Positions 287-8,082 of a DNA stretch of 8,082 bases are shown one piece after another (positions within the stretch are counted from its first letter, which is position 1; each line of letters starts with the position of its first letter). This stretch comes from a candidate division TA06 bacterium SM23_40 (GTDB lineage: Bacteria > LJUI01 > SM1-40), in contig LJUI01000116.1 of assembly GCA_001303705.1 (NCBI GenBank), forward strand, positions 1-8,082. Reading direction: 5' to 3'. A program made the translations under genes and the position numbers. The notes under the pieces are model-generated. The model worked only from the letters and a program-made list of their open reading frames with translations, made no database searches and was not told the DNA's origin.

Positions 287-315
287 TTGACAGAGTTCTG
301 GCTTTAGTATATTAT
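287..315 (+). promoter_or_regulatory. sigma70-type promoter of the iron (feo) operon
   Basis: A perfect -35 TTGACA lies at 287-292. After a 17-bp spacer comes TATTAT at 310-315, one base from the -10 consensus. TATATT at 308-313 is an alternative -10 with a 15-bp spacer. Transcription would start near 321-323, giving a leader of about 120 nt before the regulator gene. The promoter overlaps a DtxR-box-like palindrome, so metal-dependent autorepression is likely. Confidence 0.75.
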
Positions 316-332
316 TAGGGTATCCGAACAAT
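311..332. promoter_or_regulatory. putative DtxR-family operator over the -10
   Basis: The core at 315-328 has the imperfect palindrome TTnGGnTAnCCnAA. Symmetry continues outward at 311-313 and 330-332. It resembles the corynebacterial DtxR box (TTAGGTTAGCCTAACCTAA), matching 12 of the first 15 positions when aligned from base 315. It covers the end of the -10 and the expected transcription start, so bound protein would block RNA polymerase. The first gene of the transcript encodes a DtxR-family repressor, which makes autoregulation the simplest reading. The resemblance was judged by eye. Confidence 0.55.
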
Positions 333-443: not shown

Positions 444-920
444 TTGGCTGATGCAAACGCTCTCTCTCCTAAGATGGAGGACTACCTCGAGGCCGTCCTC
501 TCCATCGGCAAGGAGCGCCCGGTCGTGAGGGTGAGAGACATCGCCAAGAGGTTAGATCTCCGTATGTCAACCGTCTCCGGAGCCCTCGACGCTCTATCTC
601 AGGCGGGTATGATCGAGCACGAACCCTATGAGCACGTCGAGTTGACCGAGGCTGGCCGCAAGGTGGCGGAGCGTACGGCCCATCGACATCAGGTACTTTT
701 CGACTTTCTTACCGACATACTCCGCCTCGATCCGGAGACGGCAGAACGCGATGCCTGCCGCATGGAGCATGTCGTGAGCCCGGAGACGATCGAGCGCCTG
801 ATTCAGTTCGCCGAATTCGTCGAACAATGCCCCATGGGCGAGCGGGAGCGTCTGGCGCGGCTACTGGAGTTCATCGTCCGCGATCCTGATTGCGGTGAGC
901 GGGAGGAGGTCGATCATTGA
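444..920 (+). CDS. DtxR/MntR-family metal-dependent repressor, short form without SH3 domain
   Basis: Probable iron- or manganese-sensing DNA-binding repressor of this operon. I chose TTG at 444 because AGGAG at 431-435 lies 8 nt upstream. ATG 474 is a fallback, and the longer frame from GTG 351 lacks a ribosome-binding site and crosses the leader hairpins. The 158-aa product has a winged-helix domain at about residues 10-75 (RVRDIAKRLDLRMSTVSGAL spans the recognition region) and a helical dimerisation/metal domain at about 76-145. Candidate metal ligands by comparison with the family are D13, E16, H82, C105, E108 and H109. The ACRMEHV stretch matches the DtxR site including its Cys, whereas D13 and E16 are MntR-like, so metal preference is uncertain. 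The C-terminal FeoA-like SH3 domain of DtxR/IdeR is absent, as in MntR and TroR. Its stop overlaps the feoB start (TTGA). Confidence 0.85.
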   Translation: MADANALSPKMEDYLEAVLSIGKERPVVRVRDIAKRLDLRMSTVSGALDALSQAGMIEHEPYEHVELTEAGRKVAERTAHRHQVLFDFLTDILRLDPETAERDACRMEHVVSPETIERLIQFAEFVEQCPMGERERLARLLEFIVRDPDCGEREEVDH

Positions 921-3373
921 CTGAGCGGACCACGATCGAACAACGGGGATCATCCCATCCCAGAGGGACGAGGCACTCATTGAAGAAGCATATCACCATC
1001 GCCCTTGCCGGCAATCCGAACTCCGGCAAGACGACAGTCTTCAACAACCTCACTGGAGCTCGACAACACGTCGGTAACTATCCGGGCGTGACCGTCGAGA
1101 AGAAGGAAGGGAGTTGCACCTTCGGTGATTATCACATCCACGTCGTCGACCTCCCCGGTACGTACGGCCTGAGCGCCTACTCCTTAGAAGAGATCGTCGC
1201 TCGCAACTTCGTCATCGACGAACACCCGGACGTCGTTGTCGACATCGTCGATGCCTCGAACCTGGAGCGGAATCTGTACCTCGCGGTTCAGTTCAAAGAG
1301 CTCGGCATCCCTCTGGTAGTGGCCCTCAACATGAGCGACCTCGCAGAGGCCCGCGGCATTCACATAGACGCAGAGACCCTGTCGCACCTGTTCGGCAACC
1401 CCATGGTGCCTACGGTCGCCACCAGGAAAAAGGGCATGGAGGCTCTCTTGCGAGCCGTCGTCTCCGTGGCAACTGGCAGCGCGCGCAGCCCCGGTATGAC
1501 GATCGACTATGGTCAGGAGATCGAAGAGGAGCTCGAATGTCTCGAGACCATCATCGCCGGGACCGACGGAGAGCTACGCAAGTACATACCCCGCTGGATA
1601 GCGCTCAAGCTGTTGGAGGCGGACACCGAGATCCAGAAGAAGATCGACCATAGCAACCAGGCCCCGTCCATTTCCGCACAGGCAGAGAAGAGCCGCGCAC
1701 ATCTGGCGCGCATATGCGGAGACGATCCCGAGGCAGTCATCGCCGACTACCGTTACGGCTTCCTCAAAGGAGCCGTCGAGGAGGCCGTCCGGCGACACCT
1801 GCCCGGCGATCATCTCACCGCATCGGACAAGATCGACCGCATCGTCACAAACCACGTGTTGGGCATCCCTCTATTCCTGGCGATGATGTGGGTCGTCTTT
1901 CAGCTGACATTCAGAGTGGCAGCGCCTCCCATGCAGTGGATAGAGGCTGGGACGGACTGGCTGGCACGAGTCGTCACCACAGTCGCTCCGGAGGGACATC
2001 TGCAGTCTCTCCTCGCGGACGGAGTCATCGGCGGCGTCGGAGGCGTTATCGTCTTCCTCCCCAACATCCTTCTCCTTTTCCTCGCCATCGCAGCACTGGA
2101 GGACTCAGGGTACATGGCGCGGGCGGCGTTCATCATGGATCGTGTCATGCATAAGATCGGGCTGCATGGCAAATCGTTCATTCCCATGCTCATTGGATTC
2201 GGCTGCTCTGTGCCGGCGATCATGGCTACGCGTATCCTCGAGGAGAGACGAGACCGTATGACAACTATCCTCGTCATCCCCCTCATAAGTTGCGGTGCAA
2301 GACTCCCGGTCTACACTCTCCTCATCGCCGCCTTCTTCCGACCCCAGGTAGCCGGGAATGTCCTTTTCTCGATCTATGTACTCGGGATCCTGGCGGCCGT
2401 GCTCGTAGCGAAACTCCTTCGTGGGACGATATTCAGCGGGCCCTCTACACCGTTCGTCATGGAGCTCCCCCCGTACCGTATCCCCACCCTGAGAGGCTTG
2501 TGTGTCCACACGTGGCAACGTGGATGGATGTATCTCAGGAAGGCGGGGACGTTTATCCTCGCGTTCTCCATCCTCATGTGGTTCCTCATGACGTTCCCCG
2601 CCGATCCGCCGCTGAATCGAGATTATCGGGCCGAAGCTGCTGACATCGAACGCGATTTTGCCTCGATCCTCCAGCCATTCGCCGCCACCCTGGGGCTGTC
2701 GCCCGAGGACCTGACACACGACGAGGAATTGAACGACCTCACCAGCCAGATCGATTCCATACACCGTACATTCACGATGCGGGTGTCAGATGGCCATCTG
2801 GAGGAAGGGACTCCGAAATACGAGGCGCTCCATGCGCGACGAGACCGCGAGCTCGCCCAGCTTCAAGAGGAACACCCTGCCCTATCACAGATCATGTTCT
2901 CGTACTTCGAGGCAAAGACCTCACACGGCGAAGCCCTGGCCCGGCTGGCAAGCGAAGAGCGGGCCGATCGCCTCGGTAAGAGCTATGCAGGACATCTCGG
3001 GCATGCCCTCGAGCCGCTCCTCAGGCCGGTCGGCTTCGACTGGAAGATCGCCGTCGCCCTGGTAGGAGGGCTGACGGCCAAGGAAGTCGTCATCTCCACC
3101 CTCGCGACGGTCTATGGCGTGGCCGAAAGCGACGAGGAAGGGGTCGCCCTCAGGGAAGCACTGCGCAGAGACCCGACCTTCAGCCCCCTCGTCGCCTACG
3201 CCCTCATGGTCTTCATACTTCTGTACGTGCCGTGCATGGTCGCCCTTATCATGATCGCCGCGGAGACAGGATCCTGGAAGTGGGCCGCGTTCGCGGCAGG
3301 CTACTCCTCTGTTCTGGCGTGGTTCGCCGCGTTTGTCGTCTACCAAGGAGGCCATCTGCTCAGACTCGGCTGA
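917..3373 (+). CDS. feoB: FeoB, ferrous iron transporter with G-protein domain
   Basis: Inner-membrane Fe(II) uptake protein. The 818-aa product starts at TTG 917, 6 nt after GGAGGAGGT and coupled to the regulator by a 4-bp overlap. TTG 980 also has a GAGG and would remove a 21-residue extension, bringing the start closer to typical FeoB. The N-terminal GTPase shows G1 GNPNSGKT (32-39), G3 DLPGTYGL (78-85) and G4 NMSD (138-141), then a helical spacer to about 300. Membrane segments begin near 317. Both Gate regions are recognisable: GFGCSVPA (427-434) with LISCGARLPVY (456-466), and GLTAKEVVIS (718-727). An acidic, coiled-coil-like hydrophilic insert of roughly 125 residues (about 562-688) separates a membrane segment from the SYAGHLGHALEPL stretch. 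This makes the protein longer than the roughly 770 residues of E. coli FeoB. No standalone FeoA or FeoC gene is present in the window. Confidence 0.97.
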   Translation: MTERTTIEQRGSSHPRGTRHSLKKHITIALAGNPNSGKTTVFNNLTGARQHVGNYPGVTVEKKEGSCTFGDYHIHVVDLPGTYGLSAYSLEEIVARNFVIDEHPDVVVDIVDASNLERNLYLAVQFKELGIPLVVALNMSDLAEARGIHIDAETLSHLFGNPMVPTVATRKKGMEALLRAVVSVATGSARSPGMTIDYGQEIEEELECLETIIAGTDGELRKYIPRWIALKLLEADTEIQKKIDHSNQAPSISAQAEKSRAHLARICGDDPEAVIADYRYGFLKGAVEEAVRRHLPGDHLTASDKIDRIVTNHVLGIPLFLAMMWVVFQLTFRVAAPPMQWIEAGTDWLARVVTTVAPEGHLQSLLADGVIGGVGGVIVFLPNILLLFLAIAALEDSGYMARAAFIMDRVMHKIGLHGKSFIPMLIGFGCSVPAIMATRILEERRDRMTTILVIPLISCGARLPVYTLLIAAFFRPQVAGNVLFSIYVLGILAAVLVAKLLRGTIFSGPSTPFVMELPPYRIPTLRGLCVHTWQRGWMYLRKAGTFILAFSILMWFLMTFPADPPLNRDYRAEAADIERDFASILQPFAATLGLSPEDLTHDEELNDLTSQIDSIHRTFTMRVSDGHLEEGTPKYEALHARRDRELAQLQEEHPALSQIMFSYFEAKTSHGEALARLASEERADRLGKSYAGHLGHALEPLLRPVGFDWKIAVALVGGLTAKEVVISTLATVYGVAESDEEGVALREALRRDPTFSPLVAYALMVFILLYVPCMVALIMIAAETGSWKWAAFAAGYSSVLAWFAAFVVYQGGHLLRLG

Positions 3374-3395: not shown

Positions 3396-3593
3396 ATGTG
3401 GGAGAAGGTCATCGTCACAGCCATCGGACTGGGAGCCGGCATACTCCTTGCGCGCCATCTCGCAAGGCTCACGCGTAACCCATCCGAGCCGCGATGTGAC
3501 AACTGCACATCAGGCGGCTGCGACGAGGATACTTCGTGCTCTATGGCGCACGGGAATACGGCACGTCAGAACTCCACCCCATCTGAGCGATGA
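3396..3593 (+). CDS. small FeoB-associated Cys-rich membrane protein
   Basis: A 65-aa protein starting at ATG 3396 with GAGGA at 3382-3386, 9 nt upstream; the frame is open further upstream but only within feoB. Residues 4-19 form one hydrophobic span (VIVTAIGLGAGILLAR) followed by a basic stretch (H21, R24, R27). Next comes a Cys cluster: C34, C37 (CDNC), C42 and C48. The polar C-terminal 16 residues are unremarkable. The layout (very short, one N-terminal membrane helix, positive stop-transfer, then CxxC-type cysteines, directly after feoB) matches the FeoB-associated Cys-rich membrane protein family, whose function is not established. A role in holding or handing over Fe(II) at the cytoplasmic face of FeoB is inference. 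It begins 22 bp after feoB and is surely co-transcribed. Confidence 0.7.
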   Translation: MWEKVIVTAIGLGAGILLARHLARLTRNPSEPRCDNCTSGGCDEDTSCSMAHGNTARQNSTPSER

Positions 3594-3630
3594 GGCATGA
3601 TGGCTCGACCGAATGCGAACAGGAGACGAA

Positions 3631-4341
3631 ATGGCACATAACCGCGGCGGACGCGATCCGAATGCGAATCTCAGGCGCCAGCTGGCTCACGTCTTCGCCA
3701 GAGAGGGGCTCGCCCACTCTGAAGAGCTCGACGCGGTCATCGACGTATTCCTCGCCGCCGACCGACACCTCTCCGTAACCGAAGCCAAGGAGGCACTCGA
3801 GCGCAGGGGGCTCCACCTCGACGCGGAGGCGATACGGGATGCGCTCGATCTCCTCGTCAGCTACGGACTCGCGACCAAGAGAACGTTTGAGAGTGCAGAA
3901 CCCAGATATGAGCATCTTCACGTCGGCGAACATCACGACCACTTCATCTGCACGCGGTGCGGCAAGATCATGGAACTCCGATCGGACGAGATCGAAACCC
4001 TCCAGAACGACCTCAGTCAATCAATGGGTTTCCGTCCGCTGAGCCACAAGCTCGAGCTGTACGGACTGTGCGGCGACTGCTGCGGCCCGCCGAGTGAATT
4101 AATCCCGCTGGCCATGGTGCCGACAGGAGCATCGGTCGAACTCGTTGATGTCCGGGGTGGATTCGGGGTGCGGCACCATCTGCAACGCATGGGCCTGCGC
4201 ATCGGAGATCAGGTCAACGTCGTCCATAACCAGGGCTTCGGTCACATGATCCTGGCTGTAGGGGATACGAGACTGGTGCTGGGGCAGCGGATGGCCGAGA
4301 AGCTGCTCGTGCGTGCGGAAGAGCCGCCGGAAGAAGATTGA
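3631..4341 (+). CDS. Fur-family repressor fused to a FeoA domain
   Basis: The 236-aa product starts at ATG 3631, preceded by AGGAG at 3621-3625; an in-frame ATG at 3613 has no ribosome-binding site. Residues 11-95 form the Fur winged helix. Residues 100-150 are a well-preserved Fur metal/dimerisation region: HHDH (101-104), CTRC (107-110), E115, H139 (LSHKLELYGLC) and CGDC (147-150). The two CxxC pairs are the usual structural zinc site, and the His/Glu residues fit the regulatory metal site. Residues 157-229 are a complete FeoA/SH3-like domain (LIPLAMVPTGASVELVDV, LQRMGLRIGDQV, MILAVGDTRLVLGQRMAEKLLV). FeoA normally binds or stimulates FeoB, while Fur represses iron-uptake genes when iron is bound. 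Here both lie in one chain as the last gene of a feo operon. Either the FeoA domain still contacts FeoB, or it acts like the SH3 domain of DtxR as an intramolecular regulator. No frameshift or stop separates the domains, and the linker is only about 6 residues. Confidence 0.92.
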   Translation: MAHNRGGRDPNANLRRQLAHVFAREGLAHSEELDAVIDVFLAADRHLSVTEAKEALERRGLHLDAEAIRDALDLLVSYGLATKRTFESAEPRYEHLHVGEHHDHFICTRCGKIMELRSDEIETLQNDLSQSMGFRPLSHKLELYGLCGDCCGPPSELIPLAMVPTGASVELVDVRGGFGVRHHLQRMGLRIGDQVNVVHNQGFGHMILAVGDTRLVLGQRMAEKLLVRAEEPPEED

Positions 4342-4366
4342 AACCAGAGGACGAATCGAGTATATT
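4338..4366 (+). promoter_or_regulatory. sigma70-type promoter of the gpgS operon
   Basis: TTGAAA at 4338-4343 overlaps the TGA stop of the Fur-FeoA gene. It is followed by a 17-bp spacer and TATATT at 4361-4366, each hexamer one base from consensus. The 9-mer AGTATATTA at 4359-4367 also occurs at the feo promoter (306-314). Transcription would begin near 4373, about 208 nt before the first start codon. No DtxR- or Fur-box-like palindrome was seen here, so the second operon is probably not iron-controlled by the same means. There is no terminator between the operons, so some read-through from feo is expected. Confidence 0.7.
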
Positions 4367-4372
4367 ACCACT

Positions 4373-4580
4373 AGTTAGAGGAGCTGGTCCGCTATATGAG
4401 ATGGCTCACGGCGCCACGCTGGTCTCTCTCCTGAGAGCCGGCGCTGTGCGGCAGCCAGGAGTAGGAGCCGGTTTCACAGTGTGTACAGGGGTGGCTGGCC
4501 GCAACGGAATCGCAGTGAACCTGAAAAGGAGGGCGGACTATAGAGAAGATCGGCTCCCCGATCAGGGAGACCAGAGAGCT
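4373..4580 (+). ncRNA. long structured 5' leader, candidate cis-regulatory RNA
   Basis: About 208 nt lie between the predicted transcription start and ATG 4581. By eye it folds as a closed domain. P1 pairs 4385-4393 with 4532-4540 (9 pairs including two G-U; core GTCCGC/GCGGAC). P2 pairs GCGCC 4411-4415 with GGCGC 4440-4444, then GG/CC and CTCTC 4424-4428 with GAGAG 4433-4437 around a TCCT loop. P3 pairs GCGGCAGCCA 4448-4457 with TGGCTGGCCGC 4492-4502 (10 bp, one bulge). The strand 4503-4531 inside P1 is single-stranded and purine-rich (AACGGAA, GAAAAGGAG). The AGGAGG at 4527-4532 has no start codon in reach, so it is not a simple ribosome-binding site. The stretch can be read through in the frame of the next gene, but its codons (AGA, GGA, CTA, TTA, ATA) differ from the neighbours and it matches nothing in the M20 fold. 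I could not match it to TPP, FMN, SAM, cobalamin, glycine, lysine, guanidine or c-di-GMP classes. Confidence 0.5.
4548..4569 (+). promoter_or_regulatory. alternative hairpins next to the ribosome-binding site
   Basis: GATCGG at 4548-4553 pairs perfectly with CCGATC at 4558-4563 (6 bp, loop CTCC). The overlapping CTCCC at 4554-4558 can instead pair with GGGAG at 4565-4569 (5 bp, loop CGATCA). The second fold hides GGGAGA (4565-4570), the best Shine-Dalgarno candidate for ATG 4581, and the first leaves it free. The two cannot form together. This is the arrangement expected of a translational on/off platform below a leader domain, but short inverted repeats also arise by chance. Confidence 0.35.
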
Positions 4581-5732
4581 ATGAAGGACCCCATCTCTCC
4601 GGATCTGCGCCAGAAGGCAGAAGAGCGACTTGCCGAGCTCTCCGCGCGTATCGTCTCCAACCTAATCATGGTGGGACAGATCCCCGCGCCGACAGGTGAG
4701 GAGGAGGCGCGCGGCGAGTATATTATCGAGCGCATCGTCGAGCTGGGGCTCGAGGACGTGGGCCGGGACGCGACGGGCAATGTCTATGCGCGCCGTCCCG
4801 GGACGCGCGGGCTCAATACCATCGGCCTCTTCGCGCCCCTCGATACGCTCTTTCCCGCAGAGGTTGATCACCACCTCGCCATGAGCTCTTCCCGCGTCAC
4901 CGGGCCGGGTGTCACCAACGACAGCTTCGCAGCCTCGGCCTTACTCTCCCTCGCCGAATTCTTCGAGGGCTGGGAATATCCTCTCGACAACGATCTCCTC
5001 TTCGTCTGGCTCACCGGATGTGCTGATCAAGCCGACCACGAAGGCATGCGCTACTTCCTCCAGGGTCGCCACAATCGCCTTGCCTATGCTCTCATGCTCG
5101 AATCGATCGAGCTGGGCCGCCTGAGCTATTTCACTGTGGGTTGTCTCAGATTCGACCTCACCATTCAGATCCCAACAGATAGGGCGTGGGGCGACCTGGG
5201 AGTCAACAGTGCTACTAACATCTTGGCGGACGCAGTCACCCTGCTCCTTGCGATCGAGCTCCCGCGCCGCCCGAAGACCGTGCTCAACATAGGCCTGCTG
5301 CAGGGCGGAGAGGGTCACGGAGTCCTCAGCACGGAGGCGAGCCTGGGGGCAGAGTTGCGCAGCGAGAGCGCAGATGTGCTGGCGCGCGTGGAGCGAGAGA
5401 TCGATGAGATCGCAGGACATCTCAGCTCTTATTACGGCTGCCAGGTCGACCTCCGCAAGTTCGGGCGGCGCATGCCCGCGGGCCTGCGCTTCAACCATCC
5501 GATGGTGAAGACGATCAAAGCGACGATGACCGATCTCGGCATTGCCCCCAGCCCTGGCCCCGACACGGCTGCGGCAAGCCTGGCGATGGCCCACGCCATA
5601 CCGACCACAACACTCGCCCTCACCCGCGGCCGTCGAGCTGGCAAGGAGAGCTATATCGAGATCGAACCGATACCCCTGGGATTGCTCCACGTGATACTTG
5701 TCCTACACCGCCTGGAGGAGATGCTAGCGTGA
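4581..5732 (+). CDS. M20-peptidase-fold protein lacking most zinc ligands (putative pseudoenzyme)
   Basis: The 383-aa product has M20 carboxypeptidase/deacylase architecture: catalytic domain halves at about 12-190 and 300-383, and an inserted lid/dimerisation domain at about 191-299 (VNSATNILADAV, LNIGLLQGGEGHGVLSTEA, ELRSES). The active-site residues are largely gone. The HxD motif reads PLD (86-88), so His is lost while D88 remains. The bridging Asp of GxGxxD reads N113 (GPGVTND). The Glu-Glu pair region reads GCADQAD (146-152). The lid His is replaced around RAW (201-203). The C-terminal His is absent near RAGKESYIEIEPIP (352-365). E174 and D328 look kept. ATG 4581 fits the usual M20 start. 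TTG 4338 would add 81 residues that match nothing and overlap the promoter. The stop overlaps gpgS by 4 bp, which implies a role in the same pathway, perhaps binding a sugar acid or partner rather than hydrolysis. Confidence 0.75.
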   Translation: MKDPISPDLRQKAEERLAELSARIVSNLIMVGQIPAPTGEEEARGEYIIERIVELGLEDVGRDATGNVYARRPGTRGLNTIGLFAPLDTLFPAEVDHHLAMSSSRVTGPGVTNDSFAASALLSLAEFFEGWEYPLDNDLLFVWLTGCADQADHEGMRYFLQGRHNRLAYALMLESIELGRLSYFTVGCLRFDLTIQIPTDRAWGDLGVNSATNILADAVTLLLAIELPRRPKTVLNIGLLQGGEGHGVLSTEASLGAELRSESADVLARVEREIDEIAGHLSSYYGCQVDLRKFGRRMPAGLRFNHPMVKTIKATMTDLGIAPSPGPDTAAASLAMAHAIPTTTLALTRGRRAGKESYIEIEPIPLGLLHVILVLHRLEEMLA

Positions 5733-6715
5733 CCCTGACTGACTGGATGTCCCAGAATACCTATCACCACTCAGAGTTCCAGGATTTGGCCAAGCTCGTT
5801 GAACAGAAGCAGGAACAGGGACTGCGCATCTCTCTCGCCTTTCCCACCCTCAATGAGGAGGCGACTGTCGGCAAGGAGATCGTCATCATACGCGCCGAAC
5901 TCATGGATCGGCATCAACTCATAGATGAGATCGCTGTCATCGATTCTGATTCGACCGATCGTACCCTCGAGGTAGCTCGTCGGTTTGGCGCGAAGACGTT
6001 CCTCGCATCGGAATGCCTACCCCGCCTCGGCAAGCGCCGGGGCAAAGGAGAAAACCTCTGGAAGAGTCTGTACGTTCTCCAGGGGGATATCATCGTCTGG
6101 CTGGACGCCGACATCAAGAACATACATCCAAAATTCGCGTACGGCCTCGTCGGTCCCCTGCTCCAGCGTCCGGAGATCAGCTATGTCAAGGCATTCTATG
6201 AACGACATCTCACCCTCGAGAATGGCAGGCGAGCCGGAGGTGGCGGGCGGGTGACCGAGATCCTTGTACGGCCGCTGTTCAATCTCTTCTACCCTGACCT
6301 GGCTTCGGTCATCCAGCCTCTCTCAGGGGAGTACGCCGGTCGGCGCAATGTACTCGACGCTATCCCGTTCTCTATCGGGTACGGTGTCGAGACGGGAATG
6401 CTCATCGACATCTTTCAGCGGCACGGACTCGATGCCATGGCTCAGGTCAATCTCGATCGGCGCGACCACCGGAACCAGACGACCGTCGCTCTGGGGCGCA
6501 TGGCCTTCGGGATCCTCCAGACGTTCTTCCGCAGGCTTGAGCAGAGCGGTACGCTGACCTCCGAGCAAATCATGGAACAGCTTCCTCGACTGATGCATCA
6601 GATTAAGGTCGAAGGTGAACAGTATACAGTTCACAAGTACGAGATCGACGAACAGGAGCGACCGCCGATGATCACCATCGACGAGTACCGTAAGAAGTGG
6701 GATCGCCATGAATGA
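5729..6715 (+). CDS. gpgS: glucosyl-3-phosphoglycerate synthase (GT81, GT-A fold)
   Basis: Transfers glucose from a nucleotide sugar to 3-phosphoglycerate, giving glucosyl-3-phosphoglycerate, the first step to glucosylglycerate and related compatible solutes (or to methylglucose polysaccharide in mycobacteria). The 328-aa cytosolic protein starts at GTG 5729, 8 nt after GGAGGAG at 5714-5720. Visible motifs are FPTLNEEATVG (38-48), the nucleotide-binding IDSDSTDRT (71-79), GKGENLWKSL (105-114), the metal-binding DAD (126-128), GGGRVTE (171-177), PLSGEYAGRR (197-206), YGVETGML (218-225) and QVNLDRRDHRN (239-249) with the conserved His247. These follow mycobacterial GpgS in order and spacing. 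A 60-residue C-terminal tail is longer than I expect for the minimal enzyme. The stop overlaps the next glycosyltransferase by 8 bp. A matching phosphatase (gpgP-like) is not in the window and may lie downstream. A mannosyl-3-phosphoglycerate synthase is less likely, since the motifs are of the GT81 type. Confidence 0.87.
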   Translation: MTLTDWMSQNTYHHSEFQDLAKLVEQKQEQGLRISLAFPTLNEEATVGKEIVIIRAELMDRHQLIDEIAVIDSDSTDRTLEVARRFGAKTFLASECLPRLGKRRGKGENLWKSLYVLQGDIIVWLDADIKNIHPKFAYGLVGPLLQRPEISYVKAFYERHLTLENGRRAGGGGRVTEILVRPLFNLFYPDLASVIQPLSGEYAGRRNVLDAIPFSIGYGVETGMLIDIFQRHGLDAMAQVNLDRRDHRNQTTVALGRMAFGILQTFFRRLEQSGTLTSEQIMEQLPRLMHQIKVEGEQYTVHKYEIDEQERPPMITIDEYRKKWDRHE

Positions 6716-8082
6716 GTTGAGGCTCGTCGTAGTCCACTATCATCTTCTCCCGGGAGGCGTGACATCAGTGATACGAGACGGTCTCGCCGCCCTCGCGCTG
6801 TATGGCGGGTGGGACCGTGTCGTGGCCACGATCCTCGCAGGGCGATCCTCCGGCGTGGCATCGTTCCTGGAACAGACGTCGTCGATCTGGGACGGAGGTC
6901 TGGCCATCAACGTTCAGACGTGGCCTGTTCTCGACTATCGGTCCGACCCCTGGCCCTCACAACTCGAATTCGAGGCCGAGGCAATCCGACTCGCACAACA
7001 ACTCACCGCGGCCTGCAATGCGATAGACGCAGACGTGCTCTGGGTTCACAATCCTACGCTCGGGAAAAACCCCCTGGTGACCGAGGCAGTCAGCCAACTC
7101 CCGCAACGCGCGCCTGGTCTGCGGATTCTGTTCCACATTCATGACTTCGCAGAATGTGGACGCCTGGACAATCTGAGAACCCTTCGGCAGTGCTGTGGAC
7201 GCGGTGGTGTGCGGACTCCGTTCCCGGCAGCTCCAGGGCTATCGGTCATTACCCTCACAACAGCGGACCGGAACAGACTTACGAGAGCAGGGTATCCCGA
7301 GTCGAACGTCTTCTCGGTTCCCGATCCTGTTCCAATGCCCCGTTCTGTTCGCCCCTTCTCTCCGCACGAGCGCGCCGGTGTTGCACGGCGCATCGCTGCC
7401 TGGGGGCGCGGTCACGCGTATCGCTTCGAACCCGGCGGCAAGTGGCTCGTCGCTCCACTCAGGACAATCCGCCGCAAGAACGTCCTCGAGCTCGCTCTGC
7501 TCCTCAGGCTGCTGGGCGACGGGTGGAGGCTCCTCATCACGCTCGACTGCAATTCCGATCCGGAACGTCCCTATGCAGAAATGGTGAAAGAATGTCTGCG
7601 CAGGGAGGATCTCCCCGCTGTTCTTGGATTCGGCCCGGATCTCATCGGAGAGGCGATATCCTTCGATCCCCTTCTCGCCTCCGCCGACGCGATAGGCACG
7701 ACCTCGGTCCTCGAAGGATTTGGGCTCACCTTCGTCGAAGCAGGACTCCGCCGCCGTCCGCTTCTCGGCCGAGACCTTCGCGATGTCAGCGGCGACCTCG
7801 CGGGACTCCCGAGACAGGGCCTGTACGGAGCCCTGTGTGTGCCCCTCGAAGAGAGGGACCGTGTGAAGACGCTCAATATGTACCGTGAGAAAGTGACCCG
7901 CACTGCCGAGGAGCTGGAGATCACACCTGCTCACCGGGATCGGGCTATGGACCGGATGGAGTCCACGTTCGAGAACAACCTGATCGATTTCTCCCTCCTC
8001 GATCTCGCGTCTCAGGCTCGTGCGGTCCACCGGCTGGCCGACCCTGCGGCACGTGACGAGGTCCTATCCGCCAACCCCGATG
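6708..8082 (+). CDS. GT4-type glycosyltransferase (GT-B fold), 3' end outside window
   Basis: The frame is open from ATG 6708 to the window edge (458 codons seen), overlapping gpgS by 8 bp. The ribosome-binding site is weak (GTGGGA, about 5 nt away), suggesting translational coupling. The N-terminal half has a Rossmann-like start (LRLVVVHYHLLPGGVTSVI, 4-22; the GGV loop is typical of GT4 acceptor domains). Later come VLWVHNPTLGKN (110-121) and LFHIHDFAECGRLDNL (141-156). The C-terminal half shows a donor-site stretch APLRTIRRKNVLELALLL (249-266) and the EX7E element TSVLEGFGLTFVEAG (332-346; E336 and E344). These support a retaining sugar transferase using a nucleotide sugar. Tight coupling to gpgS suggests it acts on the GpgS product or its dephosphorylated form, for example adding mannose as in mannosylglucosylglycerate synthesis. 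Acceptor and donor cannot be read from the sequence. No membrane segment is visible. Confidence 0.8.
   Translation, partial: MNELRLVVVHYHLLPGGVTSVIRDGLAALALYGGWDRVVATILAGRSSGVASFLEQTSSIWDGGLAINVQTWPVLDYRSDPWPSQLEFEAEAIRLAQQLTAACNAIDADVLWVHNPTLGKNPLVTEAVSQLPQRAPGLRILFHIHDFAECGRLDNLRTLRQCCGRGGVRTPFPAAPGLSVITLTTADRNRLTRAGYPESNVFSVPDPVPMPRSVRPFSPHERAGVARRIAAWGRGHAYRFEPGGKWLVAPLRTIRRKNVLELALLLRLLGDGWRLLITLDCNSDPERPYAEMVKECLRREDLPAVLGFGPDLIGEAISFDPLLASADAIGTTSVLEGFGLTFVEAGLRRRPLLGRDLRDVSGDLAGLPRQGLYGALCVPLEERDRVKTLNMYREKVTRTAEELEITPAHRDRAMDRMESTFENNLIDFSLLDLASQARAVHRLADPAARDEVLSANPD

Follow-up and report, generated by a model that had tools for sequence, protein, structure and literature searches.

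A Fur-FeoA fusion from a feo operon and its widespread class, in which the Fur metal ligands are kept and the canonical DNA-contact residues are replaced

The window analysed here, an entire contig of 8082 bp from an assembly of 2.88 Mb (89.8% complete), encodes a Fur-type protein joined to a FeoA domain; FeoA assists the iron importer FeoB. The residues with which Fur reads DNA are replaced in this protein and its metal ligands are retained, and the same holds for a large class of related fusions. That the window protein and its relatives have lost canonical DNA reading is well supported by the alignments. Related fusions are spread over many anaerobic bacteria, and the findings suggest an iron sensor that acts on the importer itself, not on the importer gene.

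The fusion gene (nt 3631–4341, forward strand) is an uninterrupted reading frame with a stop-free translation of 236 amino acids. It begins at an ATG at nt 3631 preceded by GGAG, and a further in-frame ATG lies at nt 3613. A Pfam scan of the chain gives FUR and FeoA alone, with neither Fe_dep_repress nor Fe_dep_repr_C. FUR (PF01475) matches residues 30–144 with 70 bits (cut-off 23.1), and FeoA (PF04023) matches residues 158–228 with 50.3 bits (cut-off 23), covering positions 1–73 of the 74 in the profile. From these matches, residue mapping and an AlphaFold model, the protein can be divided into a Fur-like N-terminal winged helix without the DNA-contact residues (residues ~12–84), a Fur metal/dimer domain (~85–151) and an SH3-like FeoA domain (~157–229, nt 4099–4317). 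The preliminary description of one unbroken gene, with both CxxC zinc pairs and a linker of about 6 residues, is borne out by the open frame, the domain search and the translation, in which the pairs are found at 107/110 and 147/150 and the linker is ~6–7 residues long. A frameshift or assembly artefact is ruled out by the same architecture in ~85 further proteins from independent assemblies. The PDB entries that match the protein best, in sequence and in fold, are Fur proteins (Foldseek returns Fur structures). The fused FeoA domain matches the FeoA structure 3E19, and is nearer to FeoA (E 1.7e-6) than to the SH3 domain of the DtxR-family protein ScaR (E 0.67). In the AlphaFold model (mean pLDDT 87.5) all three parts, the winged helix, the dimer domain and the FeoA domain with its SH3-like fold, are confident, with pLDDT of 92–97 for the helices of the winged-helix domain and >90 for the FeoA strands; the relative orientation of the domains is uncertain (pTM 0.60).

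In Fur of Magnetospirillum (MgFur), Lys15, Tyr56 and Arg57 read the DNA and are described as highly conserved, and the mutation R57A abolishes DNA binding (PMC4506495). A profile alignment places Ala28, Arg69 and Asp70 of the window protein at these positions. The helix equivalent to the DNA-recognition helix of Fur (nt 3823–3861, forward strand, codons 65–77; a helix at residues 65–77 in the AlphaFold model) carries AEAIRDAL where Fur has an ATVYRTL-type motif. The replacement extends through the class. The pair [YF]R at MgFur positions 56–57 occurs in 0/89 fusion rows versus 118 of the 126 solo Fur domains, and a Lys or Arg at position 15 in 4/89 versus 114/126. The 89 rows include a few duplicates and represent ~85 distinct proteins, gathered by a relatives search, from genome contigs and by a phylum search, with the same class throughout. 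Across the class the DNA-reading positions hold non-equivalent residues, without a conserved basic replacement in the helix. The mean net charge of the DNA-binding domain is -4.5 in the fusions and +2.3 in solo Fur; it is -6 in the window protein and averages -4.3 in a second sample of 50 fusions.

The fusion presumably fails to bind DNA, although binding through other contacts may still occur. The preliminary description had proposed that FeoB sequesters a DNA-bound repressor, that is, a repressor held at the membrane by FeoB through FeoA so that the state of the transporter sets repression. In favour of this, the winged helix is still predicted to fold in the AlphaFold model, and some of the lost contacts could have substitutes. 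Three other fusions keep [YF]R at positions 56–57 (3/3) and an intact DNA-binding domain; they lie beside feoB (L059/L161, L068, L140) and could work in this manner. However, in the class described here the base-reading residues are all lost, the domain is acidic, an Asp takes the place of Arg57 in the window protein, and the helix offers no conserved basic replacement, so we consider a sequestered repressor improbable. Likewise, the 'complete Fur domain' of the preliminary description holds for the fold and the metal ligands and does not hold for function, since the DNA-contact residues are missing.

The metal ligands present the opposite picture. Numbering of these ligands onto MgFur rests in part on general knowledge of Fur structures. 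Metal site 1, which links the N-terminal and dimer domains (equivalents of H33, E81, H88 and H90; by sequence H46, E94, H102 and H104 in the window protein), is complete in 89/89 fusion rows, the first sample having been found partly through the HHDH and YEH patterns, which biases those columns. The second sample of 50 proteins was taken by profile without these patterns, and it agrees: H46, E94, H102, H104 and every cysteine are kept in 50/50. The four structural zinc cysteines (C107, C110, C147 and C150 in the window protein) are likewise present in 89/89 rows, and metal site 2 is kept in 74/89. Metal sensing by the fusion is likely. A Fur part that only dimerises FeoA through its structural zinc, without sensing, would account for the cysteines kept in 89/89; but the regulatory site, needless for a scaffold, is kept in 89/89 as well, and this is the least probable of the readings weighed here. 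A PerR-type identity is disfavoured by the Glu at the E81 position, where the three other Fur-family proteins of the window genome have Asp.

The altered winged helix is under strong purifying selection. The dN/dS values pooled over 14 independent pairs are 0.11 (altered winged helix), 0.06 (dimer domain) and 0.12 (FeoA). A decaying or useless winged helix is ruled out by the dN/dS of ~0.1 together with the confident fold.

In the window the fusion gene is the last of the order dtxR-feoB-fusion. The first gene (nt 444–920, forward strand, 158 aa from a TTG at nt 444, the start being judged by an upstream GGAG) encodes a DtxR/MntR-type regulator of two domains without an SH3/FeoA domain; an alternative GTG start lies at nt 351. 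It is followed by feoB (nt 917–3373, forward strand, 818 aa), with a G domain, a cytosolic helical domain and two Gate domains. FeoB and the fused FeoA are each represented by a single match in the assembly, which is incomplete (~90%). The absence of a separate FeoA from the operon, as claimed earlier, is confirmed, and a search of the assembly for a standalone feoA found none. The earlier link of a Fur-type metal sensor to FeoB likewise remains plausible from the fusion in a feo operon, and its picture of a DNA-bound repressor is not supported.

The DtxR-type protein is the likely DNA-binding regulator of the operon. Upstream of its gene lies a sigma-70-type promoter-like site (nt 287–315, forward strand; TTGACA-17-TATTAT, 11 of 12 positions), and a DtxR-box-like palindrome, TTAGGGTATCCGAA (nt 315–328, forward strand), abuts the -10 element. 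The palindrome was first noticed by eye and counted afterwards; the pattern TTNGGNTANCCNAA has this one match in the genome, with ~1.4 expected by base composition; a control pattern has 3. The putative DtxR box at the operon promoter is suggestive only, and no close match was found in the relatives with dtxR (L098, L103, L057).

A possible small gene of 65 aa (nt 3396–3593, forward strand) lies between feoB and the fusion gene. Its predicted product combines a single hydrophobic segment with a Cys-rich tail (CDNCTSGGCDEDTSC), which recalls small Cys-rich membrane proteins near feoB, and has no significant Pfam or NCBIfam match. Downstream (nt 4338–8081) are an M20-like hydrolase with a probable start at nt 4581 and a promoter-like site at nt 4338–4366, a glucosyl-3-phosphoglycerate synthase (nt 5729–6715) and a long reading frame without a Pfam match. 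These genes probably stand outside the feo operon.

Fusions without the DNA contacts are found in the window and ~85 relatives, mainly Thermodesulfobacteriota. They also occur in Omnitrophota (L103), Sumerlaeota (L143), the phylum of genome G035, the groups of genomes G262 and G275, and others. In the phylum of strain NaphS2, a full-length match is present in 66/395 sampled genomes, a count made with a profile built from the class without DNA contacts, so that fusions with an intact domain are perhaps under-counted. The combination had been called unusual on a Fur protein; this census does not uphold that, and rarity is ruled out by it. The possibility that the family is common and already characterised was raised as well: it is common, and no published account of a Fur-FeoA fusion was found among openly licensed papers. 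A survey of 2022 states that FeoA may carry 'an additional domain', and no more (PMC8749426).

A broad sample of relatives contained four full-length fusions without DNA contacts, that of the window included, and two with an intact domain. In a tree built with the recognition-helix columns left out, the three fusions whose DNA-binding domain is intact are placed elsewhere, and the Fur-FeoA fusion therefore probably arose more than once. The window protein groups with 34 other fusions, and three from the phylum of G035 stand apart, beside tandem canonical Fur copies. A single origin of the class without DNA contacts is not rejected (AU p 0.31), and convergence is therefore not claimed. Some variants beside feoB carry a tandem pair of FeoA domains behind the Fur part (L095, nt 4839–5894; L176, nt 4608–5651; L193, nt 4510–5529).

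The neighbourhoods of the fusion gene vary among relatives. In the second sample feoB lies within ~4.5 kb of the fusion in 21/40 loci and is not nearby in 19/40. It is close in the window and in G035, G041, G043, L087, L091, L092, L095, L096, L098, L101, L103, L105, L107, L114 and L143, and the fusion stands away from feo genes in L088, L090, L093, L097, L102, L104, L108 and L110. FeoB is encoded in 21 of the 22 fusion-bearing genomes. A dtxR gene lies beside the fusion in the window, L057, L098 and L103, with the order of the window repeated in L098 and the order dtxR-fusion-feoB in L103. In Desulfobacterales, fusions away from feoB (L090, L093, L097, L104) are often preceded by a common protein of ~300 aa (DLPGF...FFGSW...DVGPANTA) that looks like a metallo-beta-lactamase fold.

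In many other loci a canonical fur adjoins the fusion (L008, L039, L040, L084, L085, L092, L105, L107, L143 and others). These neighbours carry TVYR or SIYR, and in the second sample the DNA-reading residues are kept in 15/15 solo Fur neighbours. The same arrangement could serve an anti-repressor, in which the fusion forms a heterodimer with canonical Fur that has one dead DNA-binding domain, the free amount being set by FeoA and FeoB. The well-conserved dimer domain would suit such pairing. In the window genome, however, the fusion has a DtxR as its neighbour. The three remaining Fur-family proteins of that genome, besides having Asp at the E81 position, match the fusion at only 23–38% in partial alignments. 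An anti-repressor is unlikely, though it is the strongest of the alternatives. As further observations on these loci, canonical Fur beside fusions (L165–L214) has HHCH and not HHDH in 15/15, a Cys replacing the metal-site Asp. In one subgroup (L178, L180, L182–L184, L186, L187, L191 and L194), which has no feoB close by, the fusion and a canonical fur are divergently transcribed.

The fused FeoA is the sole FeoA found in the genomes of the window, L103 and L143; most other fusion-bearing genomes have an additional FeoA. Two subtypes can be told apart, 'GP...TRLALGRG.A' in the fused domain and 'APLKDP...SLR..EA' in the standalone protein, and the window has the fused type only. The standalone type adjoins most FeoBs of the fusion-bearing genomes. 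Where the fusion lies beside feoB, a second FeoA of the other subtype is usual, and operons with both subtypes were noted in L008, L039, L040, L087, L091, L105 and others. Since a further FeoA is present in most other genomes, the fused FeoA is perhaps not the main partner of FeoB there.

As judged by fold and metal site, the fusion is a Fur-family protein that does not carry the DNA contacts of the family, and it presumably works like neither plain Fur nor plain FeoA. With Fur (PF01475; MgFur 4RAZ/4RB1, CjFur 4ETS, HpFur 2XIG) it shares the dimer/metal domain, both CxxC pairs and the regulatory ligands including the His of the N-terminal domain, and it differs in lacking Lys15, Tyr56 and Arg57, in its acidic N-terminal domain and in the C-terminal FeoA. 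With FeoA (PF04023; 3E19 and others) it shares a full-length SH3-like match encoded with feoB, but the domain is tethered to a Fur-type domain and is of the 'GP...TRLALGRG.A' subtype. Regulators of the DtxR/MntR family with a C-terminal FeoA-like SH3 domain also join a metal-sensing winged helix to a FeoA-type domain, and PgMntR has twin FeoA domains (PMC4805248); that family keeps DNA binding, whereas here the scaffold is Fur and the DNA contacts are lost.

FeoC (PF09012) is another small winged-helix accessory of Feo that is linked to iron and is probably no transcription factor. Its sequence is unrelated to the fusion, and it has neither the Fur metal site nor a FeoA domain; PF09012 has no match in the fusion protein or anywhere in the window genome. 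Nevertheless, the fusion could be an analogue of FeoC, its winged helix binding the G domain of FeoB to protect FeoB or tune its GTPase, with FeoA as a second contact. FeoC binds the FeoB N-terminal domain and is absent from most Feo systems (PMC8749426). It is lacking in 19/21 fusion-bearing genomes as well as in that of the window, yet with FeoC rare anyway this absence says little, and Candidatus Aceula (G401) has the fusion plus FeoC beside feoB. We regard this analogy as unlikely, a little below the anti-repressor in probability.

Our preferred reading, to which we give about an even chance, is that of a Fur repurposed as a metal switch off DNA, which acts on FeoB through FeoA. The Fur part would be a dimeric switch that responds to metal and has ceased to read Fur boxes, and the joined FeoA domain would dock on FeoB. 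Cytosolic Fe2+ would fill the Fur-type site and the winged-helix domain would swing as in Fur; the output would be an altered FeoA-FeoB contact, by which import may be throttled or stabilised post-translationally. In the Bacteroides fragilis FeoAB protein FeoA is also covalently tied, there to FeoB. Phe23, Ile27, Met30, Ile59 and Leu61 of BfFeoA form a hydrophobic clamp for NFeoB. In MgFur, metal changes the position of the DNA-binding domain against the dimer domain (PMC4506495), and in the natural FeoAB fusion the FeoA-FeoB contact is nucleotide-dependent and made via the cytosolic domain of FeoB (PMC8980893). Transcription of the operon would be left to a separate regulator, the DtxR-type protein in the window or canonical Fur beside the fusion in relatives. 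That feoB is not nearby in about half of the family counts against action on FeoB. For the class as a whole, a direct iron-feedback valve on FeoB through FeoA, having given up DNA, is possible, though somewhat less probable than the reading for the repurposed Fur.

The fusion family, with its sensing residues kept and DNA reading lost, allows the role of FeoA and a possible control of FeoB activity by intracellular iron to be tested directly with a soluble protein. A source in culture is the thermophile Thermodesulfatator autotrophicus (L110). For the Thermodesulfobacteriota, our study suggests that the protein annotated as 'Fur' in many feo loci is probably not a repressor.
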